Position numbers and translations under genes: made by a program. A DNA stretch of 64,000 bases from Bacteroidales bacterium (GTDB lineage Bacteria; Bacteroidota; Bacteroidia; Bacteroidales; Azobacteroidaceae). This document shows, one piece after another, positions 9,846 to 23,806 of the stretch. How positions within the stretch are numbered: the first letter of the stretch is position 1; each line of letters begins with the position of its first letter. The DNA lies in the NCBI GenBank assembly GCA_003851245.1, contig BHEP01000009.1, positions 1-64,000 of the forward strand, in the 5' to 3' direction. The notes below the pieces were generated by a model, which saw only the letters and a program-made list of their open reading frames with translations, was not told where the DNA came from and did not search any database.

Positions 9846-11186
9846 TTATAATGAGGGTAAATTCATTCCCGTAATTTTCTTGTATAGATCAAGGGCATAT
9901 ACGTCGGTCATTCCCGAAATATAATCTACAATAGAAAGAATCTTTGTATAATCGTCGCCAGATTTTATTTCATATTGATCAGGAATCCTTTCCATCAACA
10001 GCTTAGAATACGATTTCTCGGGAGAGTTCACTGCATCCAACAAGCAATCCAGCAGAAAGGTAATAATTCTATAGCCTGCCAGCTCCACGTCCAATACATC
10101 TTTTGACCTATAAATATTTGCACACGCCACCTTACCACATTCTTTATAGGCAAGTCGTGCTCTTTCTCCAATATCCTGTATGAGGCTACCACCAAAATTG
10201 CCCTCTAAAATTGCTTGCTCCTTGTCAAGAAACACATTGCAGCATTCGGCAATCAATAAGCCAATTACAGAAGAGCGCAGATAGGCAATTTTTTCGTTCA
10301 CATCATCTACCATATCCATTATTTGCAGCATTCGCGGTCTCTTTTCAGGTGGAAAGAAATTCAAAAAAAGATCCATACAGTCTTTGGTAGATATCAATTT
10401 CAACTTGTAGGCATCTTCAATATCCATAACTTGGTAGCAAATATCGTCGGCAGCTTCTACCAAATATACCAGCGGATAGCGTGCAAATTTGAGGGGCTCT
10501 TCACTTAGGCATAGTATACCCAAATCCTCAGCAATTTGCTTAAAACCCTCTTCTTCGGAAGCAAAAAATCCAAACTTGCCCTTTGGACCCGACAAAAGTG
10601 AGGCGTAAGGATATTTGACAATAGATGCCAAGGTAGAATAAGTCATCGCAAAACCTCCCTTGCGGCGGCCCTTGAACTGGTGAGTCAATAGCCGCAAAGA
10701 GTTGGCATTGCCTTCAAAATGAGTGAAATCGGAAGACCTCAAATCCTTATCTTCCAAGCTCTTCATCAGTGCCATGCCATTACCTTCGGAAAAATAGGTG
10801 GCTATTGCATTTTCCCCAGAATGCCCAAAAGGAGGATTGCCCAAATCATGAGCCAAACAGGCTGCGGAAACGATGGCTCCCATTTCCAAAAAAGCAGAAG
10901 ACTGCTCTTCGCCATGTAGTTTGTATAATGCTCGACCTACAATATCGCCCAAAGAGCGACCTACACAGGCAACTTCCAAGCTATGTGTGAGTCTATTATG
11001 AACAAAAATACTCCCTGGAAGAGGAAACACCTGCGTCTTGTTTTGTAGCCTCCTAAAAGGTGCAGAAAAAATTAATCTATCATAATCTCGCTGAAAATCA
11101 GTGCGCTCATGCCGTGTTTTGTCATGGTAAGCTTCCATGCCAAATCGCTTATCAGAAAGCAGCTTGTTCCATTCCATTGCCTGCAT
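9846..11186 (-). CDS. dgt: Deoxyguanosinetriphosphate triphosphohydrolase (dGTPase)
   Basis: HD-superfamily hydrolase that cleaves dNTPs (classically dGTP) to the nucleoside and tripolyphosphate. Landmarks: YDRLIFSAPFRRLQNKTQVFPL, NRLTHSLEV (first metal His) and CLAHDLGNPPFGHSGE (HD pair); VYLVEAADDICY carries the later Asp ligand. About 446 aa from the chosen start. The frame is open to an ATG at 11219, but a promoter -7 box TACTTTTG (- strand, 11224-11217) overlaps that codon, so transcription must start inside it. The ATG at 11186 follows a purine-rich AAGGAA and gives MQAMEWNKLL; MEWNKLL at 11177 is also possible. It is divergent from the lipoprotein gene at 11316. Confidence 0.92.
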   Translation of the reverse strand: MQAMEWNKLLSDKRFGMEAYHDKTRHERTDFQRDYDRLIFSAPFRRLQNKTQVFPLPGSIFVHNRLTHSLEVACVGRSLGDIVGRALYKLHGEEQSSAFLEMGAIVSAACLAHDLGNPPFGHSGENAIATYFSEGNGMALMKSLEDKDLRSSDFTHFEGNANSLRLLTHQFKGRRKGGFAMTYSTLASIVKYPYASLLSGPKGKFGFFASEEEGFKQIAEDLGILCLSEEPLKFARYPLVYLVEAADDICYQVMDIEDAYKLKLISTKDCMDLFLNFFPPEKRPRMLQIMDMVDDVNEKIAYLRSSVIGLLIAECCNVFLDKEQAILEGNFGGSLIQDIGERARLAYKECGKVACANIYRSKDVLDVELAGYRIITFLLDCLLDAVNSPEKSYSKLLMERIPDQYEIKSGDDYTKILSIVDYISGMTDVYALDLYKKITGMNLPSL

Positions 11187-11216
11187 ATCGTTCCTTATCC
11201 TTAAATGTATTTTTGA

Positions 11217-11224
11217 CAAAAGTA
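11217..11224 (-). promoter_or_regulatory. -7 promoter box for dgt
   Basis: TACTTTTG on the - strand matches TAnnTTTG exactly. No good -33 TTTG is seen at the right distance. Its position decides the dgt start (see that gene). Confidence 0.5.
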
Positions 11225-12150: not shown

Positions 12151-13281
12151 ATGAGACAAAGATACAACATACCCGTTCTTCCTCTTGCCCTTGATCTTGA
12201 GACAAAGAAAGTTTTAATACAGCTTAATGCTGCCAACAGACAATTAGCTGAATTAAAAGGAGTTTCATTAACAATTCCTAATGAAAAAATATTGATCAAC
12301 ACTCTTACTCTTCAAGAGGCAAAAGATAGCTCTGCTGTTGAAAACATCGTTACCACACATGACGATTTGTATCGTGCAGGTGCAGATATAACTATGTCTG
12401 CTGCTACCAAAGAAGTACTCAATTACTCAAATGCCTTGAAGTATGGATTTGAATTAGTATGTAAAAATAAATTACTATCTAACTCAAACATTAAAGAGAT
12501 ACAACAAGAGCTGGAGCAAAATGATGCAGGGTTTAGGTCGGCTCCTGGAACAGCCTTAAAAAATCAACAAGGAGAAATTGTGTATACTCCCCCGCAAAAC
12601 AAACAAAAAATAGAAGACTACATGTCTAATTTAGAGCTGTTTATCAACAATGATGAGATATCAGATATTGACCCCTTAATAAAAATGGCAATCATTCACC
12701 ATCAATTTGAGAGCATACACCCATTTTATGATGGTAATGGTCGTACAGGACGCATCATAAACATACTTTATCTTGTAAACAAAGGGCTTTTAGATATTCC
12801 TATACTTTATTTAAGCAGATATATCACTCGCAACAAAGCTGAGTATTACCGTTTATTGCAAACTGTTCGCGATAGCAATGGAAGTGCTGAACTTTGGCAA
12901 GAATGGATCTGTTTTATATTGAAAGGGATTGAACAAACGGCACAACAGACAACAATTTTAGTGAAAGAAATCTCTCGACTAATGGCGGAGTATAAACAAA
13001 AAATGCGTCCAGAGTTTGGGAAGAGCTATAAACACGAATTGTTGAATAATTTATTCAACCATCCGTATACGAAAATTGAGTTTGTAATGCAAGATATAGG
13101 TGTCGGAAGAGTAACGGCCACAAAGTACTTAGATAAGCTGGTAGATATGAATCTATTGGAGAAATCTAAAGTAGGAAGAACTAATTATTACTTAAATATG
13201 GCTCTAATAAAGCTGTTTGTAAATTCAACCACAACTAATGCTATTGAAAAATTTGAAAGTGTCGAATCTGTAAATAACTAA
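12151..13281 (+). CDS. Fic-domain protein (putative AMP-transferase)
   Basis: 376 aa. Fic proteins transfer AMP (sometimes other groups) from a nucleotide to a target hydroxyl. The active-site loop HPFYDGNGR is at residues 190-198 with catalytic His190. The N-terminal region holds DSSAVEN at 59-65, which fits the inhibitory motif [ST]xxxE[GN] with Glu64 as the inhibitory residue: a class II, self-inhibited Fic. The C-terminal part (about 300-376: KIEFVMQDIGVGRVTATKYLDKL...) looks like a winged helix, typical of this chromosomal Fic group and suggestive of DNA binding or autoregulation. The target cannot be told from sequence. A large nested palindrome starts 4 bp after its stop. Confidence 0.9.
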   Translation: MRQRYNIPVLPLALDLETKKVLIQLNAANRQLAELKGVSLTIPNEKILINTLTLQEAKDSSAVENIVTTHDDLYRAGADITMSAATKEVLNYSNALKYGFELVCKNKLLSNSNIKEIQQELEQNDAGFRSAPGTALKNQQGEIVYTPPQNKQKIEDYMSNLELFINNDEISDIDPLIKMAIIHHQFESIHPFYDGNGRTGRIINILYLVNKGLLDIPILYLSRYITRNKAEYYRLLQTVRDSNGSAELWQEWICFILKGIEQTAQQTTILVKEISRLMAEYKQKMRPEFGKSYKHELLNNLFNHPYTKIEFVMQDIGVGRVTATKYLDKLVDMNLLEKSKVGRTNYYLNMALIKLFVNSTTTNAIEKFESVESVNN

Positions 13282-21890: not shown

Positions 21891-22547
21891 TCAATTATAC
21901 ATATCAGATGTTCTGAAAAGTTTTTTTAACCAATCAACGAATGATTGGCACTCAGGACTTTCTGTGTCTAAGATTTTTTTTGTAATACTCAAACCCATAG
22001 GAGTTCCTGGATCTTCTTGCCATGCCAGCCAAGTAGCAATAAGGGCTTTGGATCGGTGAACAGCTTTATATCTATCTAAGCCCTTGGCCTCAATATCAAT
22101 CAATATAGCTTCGGCAATTGGAAATAAGGCATCATTTTTAGGTGCTAAAAAATAAATAAAGTCTTCAAGCATTCCTTTTGCTTCATTATTAGGCATAATC
22201 CAAACGCCAACTCTTTTATTGTTGGATTCCAATATAAGTCCCTCTTTGGGGAGCGTCTTAGGAATATCAAAGTTGATAGATTCCAAAATAACTTTGATAG
22301 ATTCCCAACGAGCTACCACATCTACATCGGCATCAATAAGTATACCAATTGTATTTATGCCTGATTGTTTAAAGCGAACAGAGATTTCCTCTTTTAGTTT
22401 ATCAATTCCGCCAGTATCAATAATATTGAAAGTTTCAGGAATGCCACATTTTTTACACAAAGCCAACACAACATGTTTATCATCATTCCCTTCAACCAAT
22501 AATTTCTTATTGAATATTTCTACCTTTCTTTTCCCTTTACTCATCAC
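21891..22547 (-). CDS. DUF3226/TOPRIM-like nuclease-type protein
   Basis: 218 aa. The N-terminus KKLLVEGNDDKHVV has the TOPRIM acidic residue (Glu19), and ILIDADVD at 70-76 supplies the second metal-binding Asp cluster. These match DUF3226, a TOPRIM-clan family. It starts inside the last codons of the upstream ATPase gene (4-bp overlap), so the pair is translationally coupled. ATPase plus TOPRIM is the split form of OLD-type nucleases and resembles the AriA-AriB (PARIS) anti-phage arrangement, although AriB belongs to a different TOPRIM family (DUF4435). Nuclease activity is an inference from the fold and context. Confidence 0.75.
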   Translation of the reverse strand: MMSKGKRKVEIFNKKLLVEGNDDKHVVLALCKKCGIPETFNIIDTGGIDKLKEEISVRFKQSGINTIGILIDADVDVVARWESIKVILESINFDIPKTLPKEGLILESNNKRVGVWIMPNNEAKGMLEDFIYFLAPKNDALFPIAEAILIDIEAKGLDRYKAVHRSKALIATWLAWQEDPGTPMGLSITKKILDTESPECQSFVDWLKKLFRTSDMYN

Positions 22548-23677
22548 CTTATTTCTATATTCTGAGCATTTGCAATATCTAATTCGTGGGCACTAAATTC
22601 GGTTTCTAGTATTTGCCCATTCACATTGTCTAAGCGAATTAGTTTTCCGCTGATGGTATTGTTTTCTTCATTCAATACGCTTTCAAAACTCGCAATACAG
22701 TCGTTGCTATGCGTGCTTGCAAACACCTGTATGTCTAAGTCTTTGGCTAATTTGAATATCACTTTCCACAATTTTTCTTGAACGCTGTAGTGCAAACCAT
22801 TTTCAAACTCATCAATCAGCAAATAGCCTTTATCGCAATTCACTAGTGCCAAAATAATTGTGAGTATCCTATTGATTCCATCGCCCATGCTACTTAAAGG
22901 CAGTACTTTTTGTGTATTTGAGAGCTTAATTACTGCGGTTCTCTCTCTTAAGCTTGTGCCAATGAAGGCAATTCTTTCAGTCAAAGGCTCTATTATTTTT
23001 AGTGCCTCAACAACGTATTGCTCTTTCTCGCTGAGTGCTATATTATCAAATAGAGTACCATTGATTTCTCTGTCTATGTTTCGAGTGCCGATAAGCTGAT
23101 GCTGGTCGATAGGTAAATTTAAAGATGAGTAAGATGATATGTAAGATGATAATGGTCGATTGCAAGGCTGTAAAGCAGATGAATTATTACTAGAAACAGA
23201 AAATCCTATAAGGTGATCTTCTGAATTTTCGGAGTCTTCCAAAATGACTCTTTTTAAATATCGAGTCGTACTATTGTTAAGCGTAGCATCAGTATCCATT
23301 TTGTCTTGATATTTTACAAACTGGAGATAAACATTCTCATCGGTATTGCCTTCTGCATTTATTTTACCAATACAAATACCCTCTTCTTTGCTGAAACGAG
23401 CAATCCTATTTGAAAATAAAGATGACAATGATTGAACACTAGACTCTTCAATAGAAGTTAGATTCTCCCCCTCGTTTCTTCGAGAGTATTCGCCCCTTTG
23501 CTCCAATAAGCCAAATATATTTGCCAAGCTACCTCGAGTTGCATAAATAGATATTGCCTCAAGGATGGTCGATTTGCCAGTATTATTCTTGCCTGCAATT
23601 AGATTTACCTGACACAAAGACTGAATTTTTAATTCCTCTAAGTTGCGGTAATTTTTTATGTAAAGAGAGTCCAACAT
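22544..23677 (-). CDS. AAA/ABC-class ATPase, OLD/RecF-like
   Basis: 377 aa. Walker A GKNNTGKS at 29-36, an ABC-type signature LSSMGDG at 261-267, Walker B YLLIDEFE near 285-292 and a switch region FASTHSND at 319-326. The approximately 220 residues between Walker A and the signature form a variable insert. This is the AAA_15/AAA_21 architecture of OLD-family ATPases that drive a TOPRIM partner, which here is the adjacent gene. No promoter match was confidently assigned. The pair sits between rsmD and rpsA, both core genes, suggesting an insertion into housekeeping DNA. Confidence 0.85.
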   Translation of the reverse strand: MLDSLYIKNYRNLEELKIQSLCQVNLIAGKNNTGKSTILEAISIYATRGSLANIFGLLEQRGEYSRRNEGENLTSIEESSVQSLSSLFSNRIARFSKEEGICIGKINAEGNTDENVYLQFVKYQDKMDTDATLNNSTTRYLKRVILEDSENSEDHLIGFSVSSNNSSALQPCNRPLSSYISSYSSLNLPIDQHQLIGTRNIDREINGTLFDNIALSEKEQYVVEALKIIEPLTERIAFIGTSLRERTAVIKLSNTQKVLPLSSMGDGINRILTIILALVNCDKGYLLIDEFENGLHYSVQEKLWKVIFKLAKDLDIQVFASTHSNDCIASFESVLNEENNTISGKLIRLDNVNGQILETEFSAHELDIANAQNIEIR

Positions 23678-23747
23678 TATTTATTGTTTTAAGAATGTAG
23701 CCACAAATATACACCAAATTTGGGTAAGGAAGCATGTATTTACAAAC

Positions 23748-23784
23748 AAAAAAGGCGCAATCACAATGTGATTACGCCTTTTTT
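23748..23784 (-). terminator. Terminator downstream of rpsA
   Basis: A hairpin built from AAAAAAGGCG at 23748-23757, AATCACA at 23759-23765, TGTGATT at 23767-23773 and CGCCTTTTTT at 23775-23784, with one mismatch. On the - strand it ends in a T-run, as expected for an intrinsic terminator after rpsA. The A/T tracts on both sides make it potentially bidirectional. It separates rpsA from the ATPase gene. Confidence 0.8.
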
Positions 23785-23806
23785 GAATTGTATCGTTAAA
23801 AAAGGA

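Follow-up and report, generated by a model that had tools for sequence, protein, structure and literature searches.

Nucleases of the OLD family and of Gabija cut DNA, and in AbiL, an abortive-infection system described from Lactococcus, the ATPase is AbiLi. It has been reported that, in PARIS, AriB is restrained by AriA and, once freed by a phage trigger, cuts tRNA (PMC12409363), and that AbiLii is of the RloB type (PMC10440598). The PDC entries of PADLOC are guilt-by-embedding candidates, the majority of which have not been validated by experiment (PMC12988326). The locus considered here consists of two coupled genes on the minus strand at 21891–23677 of the window, by which the whole stretch of 64,000 nucleotides analysed is meant, and encodes an ATPase followed by a DUF3226 protein (Table 1). 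To our knowledge, DUF3226 has no described function, and neither DUF3226 nor PDC-M38 is named in any paper found in the literature search.

Layout of the pair and its relation to described systems

Profile matches to defence proteins were obtained with PADLOC-DB 2.0.0. The ATPase matches PDC-M38A at 2e-98 (residues 1–377 on 1–383 of 383), far above its match to AbiLi (1.7e-60 over 1–377, the full length), and the DUF3226 protein matches PDC-M38B at 1.3e-68 (1–211 on 1–218 of 220); in Pfam, the former, which is OLD/RecF-like, falls under AAA_15 (2.2e-27) and AAA_21 (7.9e-21), and the latter under PF11536 (4.7e-72). Both proteins match PDC-M38 over their full length, the two-gene coupling is alike, and no difference was found; the adjacency and co-direction of PDC-M38 are also seen here, with an overlap of 4 or 1 nt and adjacency in 78/78 testable loci. 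Judged by these matches, the pair is PDC-M38, a listed defence candidate, and hence the label is not new. The proposal of a new, distinct defence subtype is unsupported, because PADLOC already holds both proteins as PDC-M38A and PDC-M38B. The basis on which PDC entries were discovered, embedding in or beside defence systems, is no element of the model and is absent from the clade of the window pair, which does not bar membership.

By ATPase sequence, the nearest tested system is AbiL of Lactococcus, whose AbiLi is matched over the whole length and whose plasmid-borne two-gene layout is shared by relatives of the pair. Among the PADLOC profiles, AbiLii gave no match to the window DUF3226 protein at E up to 1; a distant DUF3226 protein (L016) showed a weak AbiLii match of 1.3e-6, the sole such case reported among DUF3226 proteins. 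PARIS (AriA/AriB, class 4, split OLD), in which three AriB are carried by an AriA hexamer, likewise has separate ATPase and TOPRIM genes and shares the metal residues, and the fold likeness reaches Z 16.9 for the window ATPase against AriA and Z 7.2 for DUF3226 against AriB. It differs in that the window effector has 218 aa against ~300 aa, and in that the window ATPase matches AriA no better than 1.9e-25. Since no match of AriB (DUF4435) to the window DUF3226 was obtained at E up to 1, whereas the true AriB of locus L025 scores 1.8e-80, the pair is not PARIS, and the preliminary description was right to state that the TOPRIM partner is not DUF4435. The OLD nucleases of classes 1 and 2 (TsOLD, BpOLD and XccOLD) and GajA share with the pair the folds of both domains and the catalytic set including the extra lysine, and all the elements that define the OLD family, namely an ABC ATPase plus TOPRIM, E..DxD at metal A, acidic residues at metal B and a Lys/Arg, can be traced in the two sequences. 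In OLD classes 1–3, however, both domains lie on one polypeptide, whereas the window pair has two ORFs; Gabija has the helicase GajB beside GajA, whereas the neighbours of the window pair are rsmD and rpsA, without GajB.

Both ORFs lie where they had been placed, and the ATPase and TOPRIM motifs are present as described. A GTG start of DUF3226 at 22547 gives a 4-nt overlap with the ATPase gene (GTGA), and the next ATG, the alternative start, gives a 1-nt overlap (TGATG); the overlap that had been claimed is real, its exact size depending on which start is chosen. The rsmD and DUF3226 genes are convergent, with stops ~30 bases apart, and rpsA lies upstream, co-directional with the pair. Between rpsA and the pair an inverted-repeat search found a hairpin that is absent from the list of a simple terminator scan of the window; a terminator on this side is as described, but the hairpin is most simply read as that of rpsA and not as the pair's own. 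A promoter at TATATTTG is only suggested, because a well-spaced −33 motif was not found with it ahead of the ATPase ATG. The GC content of the pair is 35.7% against 39.4% for the window, and GC3 of the DUF3226 gene is 0.28 against a mean of 0.385 (sd 0.05); this low GC perhaps marks the pair as a recent acquisition.

Table 1. Positions of the genes, motif codons and putative signals of the ATPase–DUF3226 pair in the window.
Feature	Position	Strand	Remark
ABC-type AAA ATPase, PDC-M38A / AbiLi-like, 377 aa, first gene of the pair	22544..23677	-	
DUF3226 TOPRIM-type predicted nuclease, PDC-M38B, 218 aa, second gene of the pair	21891..22547	-	
Walker A codons 29–36 (GKNNTGKS), G29–S36	23570..23593	-	no variation at G29 or K35 in 77 homologues
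Walker B D289–E290 codons (LLIDE)	22808..22813	-	invariant in 77 homologues
E19 codon, glutamate of TOPRIM motif 1, at metal A	22491..22493	-	invariant in 81 homologues
D72-A73-D74 codons, TOPRIM DxD, metal A	22326..22334	-	no variation at D72 or D74 in 81 homologues
E128 codon, glutamate of metal B as deduced from BpOLD E508 (PMC7049728)	22164..22166	-	invariant in 81
K167 codon, compared with BpOLD K562 because it lies in a C-terminal helix	22047..22049	-	invariant in 81
TATATTTG, match to the Bacteroidota −7 promoter motif TAnnTTTG	23704..23711	-	34 nt before the ATPase ATG; weak
Hairpin with 19-nt arms and A/T tracts on both sides	23747..23785		inverted-repeat search; putative bidirectional terminator that separates the pair from rpsA

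Active sites and predicted folds

In BpOLD, metal A is bound by E400, D455 and D457 and metal B by E404, T506 and E508, and K562 comes from the C-terminal helical domain (PMC7049728). The residues E19, D72 and D74, then D23 and E128, and then K167 of DUF3226 correspond in order and approximate spacing to the metal A set, the metal B set and K562, respectively; D23, E128 and K167 were assigned by order, spacing and helix position, and K167 lies inside helix 162–175 of the AF2 model. The alignment of 81 homologues shows no substitution at E19, D72, D74, G125, E128 or K167, and at position 23 it has D in 78/81 and E in 3/81. Similarly, in 18 highly divergent DUF3226 proteins (18–42% identical, including plasmid copies), E19, D72, D74 and K167 are invariant and E128 is kept in at least 90%. 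Of the DADVD motif noted at residues 72–76, D72 and D74 are thus upheld, while D76 is not among the invariant positions. For the ATPase, G29, K35, G265, G267, D289, E290 and H323 are invariant in 77/77 homologues, the signature being L261-SSMGDG-267 and the switch histidine H323. Motif conservation in both proteins is far above chance, and, by analogy with BpOLD, the DUF3226 protein is likely a two-metal TOPRIM-type nuclease.

The AF2 model of the ATPase has a mean pLDDT of 92.9 and is nearest to SMC/Rad50 heads (Z ~18), followed by AriA at 16.9, PtuA at 16.7 and GajA at 16.6, which are nearly tied. Among solved folds, the Pyrococcus horikoshii protein PH0156 (PDB 2p62) comes nearest to the DUF3226 model (mean pLDDT 93.8), with 187 residues aligned at Z 12.8 and 14% identity; it is followed by XccOLD (10.8), BpOLD (10.3) and TsOLD (10.0), with the Eco2 retron TOPRIM at 8.1 and AriB at 7.2. 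Since unrelated folds begin at Z ~8.6, the OLD scores rise modestly above this background, and the AriB score does not rise above it. With Foldseek, OLD C-terminal regions rank first for the DUF3226 model at E 1e-3, none falling below 0.001. The Pfam OLD-like_TOPRIM family matches the DUF3226 protein at 0.081, below threshold, so that its place among TOPRIM proteins is argued from the predicted fold and the residues. A PDB sequence search with DUF3226 alone gave no close match, and a PDB profile search gave AriB at E 0.25 only; the match of the A6 profile to the engineered protein 4rzp (6e-6) was set aside, no stretch of it passing alone. The description of the locus as a coupled ATPase and TOPRIM pair of the split-OLD type with intact active sites agrees with these results: the motifs are invariant, the predicted fold is OLD-like, and E19, D72 and D74 of the TOPRIM metal site show no loss in the 81 homologues.

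Distribution, neighbourhood and exchange of effector segments

From genome and viral contigs, 81 DUF3226 loci were taken, and the coupling is near-perfect: the ATPase lies directly upstream in all 78 loci with enough upstream DNA, mostly with gaps within 10 nt, and the other three, in which the contig begins within ~150 bases of DUF3226, are uninformative on the partner. DUF3226 proteins at 16–20% identity are also paired with an ATPase; across many phyla, DUF3226 is a regular partner of OLD/AbiLi-type ATPases. The presence of DUF3226 is patchy (14/120 genomes of the relatives of the window genome and 12/395 of the class sample), and in a tree of the concatenated pair the orders of Bacteroidota are mixed, with Planctomycetota, Campylobacterota, Pseudomonadota and Spirochaetota placed inside, several of these being metagenome bins that are possibly mis-binned. 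Relatives show dN/dS of ~0.05–0.5, i.e., purifying selection. Plasmid carriage and this patchiness mark the pair as mobile and bear out the accessory character that had been suggested.

The pair is the main cargo of more than 100 sequenced small plasmids of Klebsiella and E. coli. For instance, in ~130 PLSDB records, nearly all Klebsiella plasmids of ~4.2 kb, it is the only or nearly the only cargo; these records and loci L199, L200 and L205 are ColRNAI-type and similar plasmids of 3.8–4.9 kb, mostly from Klebsiella. A 6.4-kb Citrobacter plasmid (L193) carries little beyond rep, mob and the pair, here with a 4-nt overlap, and Acinetobacter plasmids carry the pair often beside BrnTA or RelE-type toxin–antitoxin genes. 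On the Klebsiella plasmid L202:548–3072, an IS1 lies inside the ATPase gene and DUF3226 is intact. Flanks of the tail genes of P2-like prophages are a common cargo site, and the copy on a Plesiomonas megaplasmid (L197:1–12597) stands just past such genes. No relative was found in 50,697 phage records, and IMG/VR gave one divergent relative.

The immediate neighbours in the clade of the window pair are housekeeping genes, the pair being singly inserted, and the Bacteroidota copies are chromosomal, without plasmid functions nearby. Two sets of 140 proteins each were compared with the PADLOC profiles at 1e-20, a near one (two genes on each side) and a far one (genes of the same loci lying >6 kb off); strong matches were ~8/140 near (among the best 25 of 36 families) and ~10/140 far, counts that are approximate, as the tool counts members per family. 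The matched flanks show no excess, and an association of this clade with defence islands, for which enrichment near known defence genes had been put forward as a check, was rejected. In other DUF3226 branches, 3/17 loci lie beside a type IIG RM, NsnABC or a tandem ATPase–TOPRIM pair: in L178:70–7143, a row of genes comprises a type IIG RM, an ATPase of the HEC-01A type accompanied by a small TOPRIM-like protein, and the ATPase–DUF3226 pair, and in L183:983–9700, NsnA, NsnB and NsnC directly precede a 1634 aa ATPase ORF with a DUF3226 partner.

Meanwhile, the insertion between rsmD and rpsA inferred in the preliminary description cannot be shown as such: in relatives, rsmD and rpsA do not lie side by side, and the order of genes around both is scrambled in the family, so the phrase is a description and not evidence. 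Two further features of the neighbourhood were discarded, namely embedding in co-directional housekeeping operons (68% on each side, p ~0.0025), a modest bias of ordinary gene order, and the recurrent neighbours Dtd, ScpA, AspRS and LeuRS, which are explained by a few related loci. In a genome of the same family (G010, L025:1–1496), a PARIS pair lies a few bases before rsmD, with AriA at 2.4e-76 (part of the gene being present) beside the AriB mentioned above; rsmD is therefore flanked by an ATPase–TOPRIM pair on either side in different relatives, PARIS in the one and the DUF3226 pair in the window.

Close comparisons, defined as locus pairs with nearly identical ATPases, number five. In three of them (L102/L106, L078/L085 and L203/L204) the N-terminal half of DUF3226 is replaced; such a step was not found in L199/L200 and L201/L205. 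In Siphonobacter (L102:8856–10639 against L106), nucleotide differences are 0.5% in the ATPase body, 35.6% in DUF3226 residues 1–118 and 8.6% in the rest, and the downstream DNA is back to 99% identity; in Parabacteroides (L078:8892–10621 against L085), the corresponding values are 1.9%, 29.7% and 0.7%; and in the Acinetobacter plasmids (L203:951–2767 against L204), they are 1.3%, 22.6% and 18.7%, with unrelated downstream DNA, so that two of these three comparisons regain ~99% identity beyond the pair. DUF3226 dS values are 0.65 and 0.48 against 0.04 and 0.07 for the ATPase; because synonymous sites are raised too, the divergence of the N-terminal half is read as allele replacement, not point selection. 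For L078/L085, the comparison points to recombination, because L096 is nearer to L085 in the N-terminal half alone (0.80–0.89, against 0.68–0.73 to L078) and elsewhere equally close to both. In Crocosphaera (L110/L116), it is instead the middle of the ATPase that holds the variable stretch, a local block of replacement. Residues 71–200 of the ATPase (window ~23078–23467) are its least conserved part in most close comparisons and form a candidate trigger-sensing region.

Proposed mechanism and competing explanations

The pair is a real, well conserved and already catalogued candidate, with a mechanism of a known kind. On balance, we favour its reading as a translationally coupled module of phage defence whose ABC-type ATPase serves as the gate of a TOPRIM nuclease, as in split OLD, PARIS and AbiL-like systems. 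The nuclease-switch part of this reading is held with considerable confidence, phage defence as its role with a modest leaning, and the outcome would probably be abortive infection. The ATPase would oligomerise and bind DUF3226, holding the nuclease inactive or poised; a phage product or infection damage would change the state of the ATPase; DUF3226 would then cut nucleic acid by two-metal catalysis, which may be tRNA as for AriB or DNA as for OLD and GajA; and growth would be halted before phage release.

It is rather unlikely, though worth weighing, that the pair is instead a toxin–antitoxin or plasmid-addiction module, in which the ATPase neutralises a toxic DUF3226, loss of the pair kills the cell and phage defence is incidental. 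Being the sole cargo of many 4–5 kb plasmids and having frequent BrnTA or RelE-type neighbours in Acinetobacter speak for it, and where the plasmid is minimal, a role in its maintenance suits the pair as well as defence does. The reported toxicity of the Fusobacterium AbiLii to E. coli points the same way, although AbiLi did not neutralise it (PMC3985639). However, the chromosomal Bacteroidota copies lack nearby plasmid functions, and a strict antitoxin should not tolerate the IS1 in the L202 ATPase beside an intact DUF3226; moreover, toxin–antitoxin and defence functions overlap, so that this explanation is partly the same mechanism under a different selective reason.

A role in genome maintenance or the cell cycle has a precedent in Cran1, an archaeal OLD-family ATPase–nuclease acting in the cell cycle (PMC12796447), which shows that enzymes of this family can have roles outside defence. 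A Rad50/RecF- or Cran1-like ATPase–nuclease set among housekeeping genes would agree with the mostly housekeeping neighbours of the singly inserted pairs and with the nearness of the ATPase model to SMC/Rad50 heads, but patchiness in close relatives, mixed phyla, carriage on tiny plasmids and at a prophage edge, and the swaps of effector alleles make it decidedly improbable. As for a selfish or decaying remnant with no present function in this genome, the low GC that hints at recent acquisition would suit it, whereas both ORFs are intact with every catalytic residue and relatives are under the constraint given above; we give this explanation hardly any weight.

Returning to the preferred defence reading, a bolder form of it can be offered tentatively and with more doubt than belief, namely that ATPase–DUF3226 forms a split-OLD immune module of its own, functional and distinct, whose two genes spread alone and away from defence islands and whose diversity arises through exchange of cassettes in the N-terminal half of the nuclease. 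The swapped cassette would comprise approximately residues 1–118, bearing E19, D23, D72 and D74, under a constant ATPase, and one sensor may be paired in this way with nucleases of differing specificity or of differing resistance to phage inhibitors; a constant switch with exchanged nuclease halves would fit an arms race on the effector. What is added here to the catalogued candidate is the absence of island association in this clade, the carriage on small plasmids and the replacement of effector halves. Should the pair restrict phage, an effector class would be added to the ATPase–TOPRIM systems, and such modules would be seen to move about away from defence islands, out of reach of guilt-by-association. 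The pairs with swapped alleles are chimeras made by nature, well suited to studying the contribution of the effector half.

Elsewhere in the window, the plus-strand gene at 12151–13278 matches the single-gene defence system SoFic at 8.1e-121, and the minus-strand gene at 9849–11219 encodes a dNTP triphosphohydrolase that matches the PADLOC dGTPase profile at 2.4e-71 and could equally be a housekeeping enzyme.
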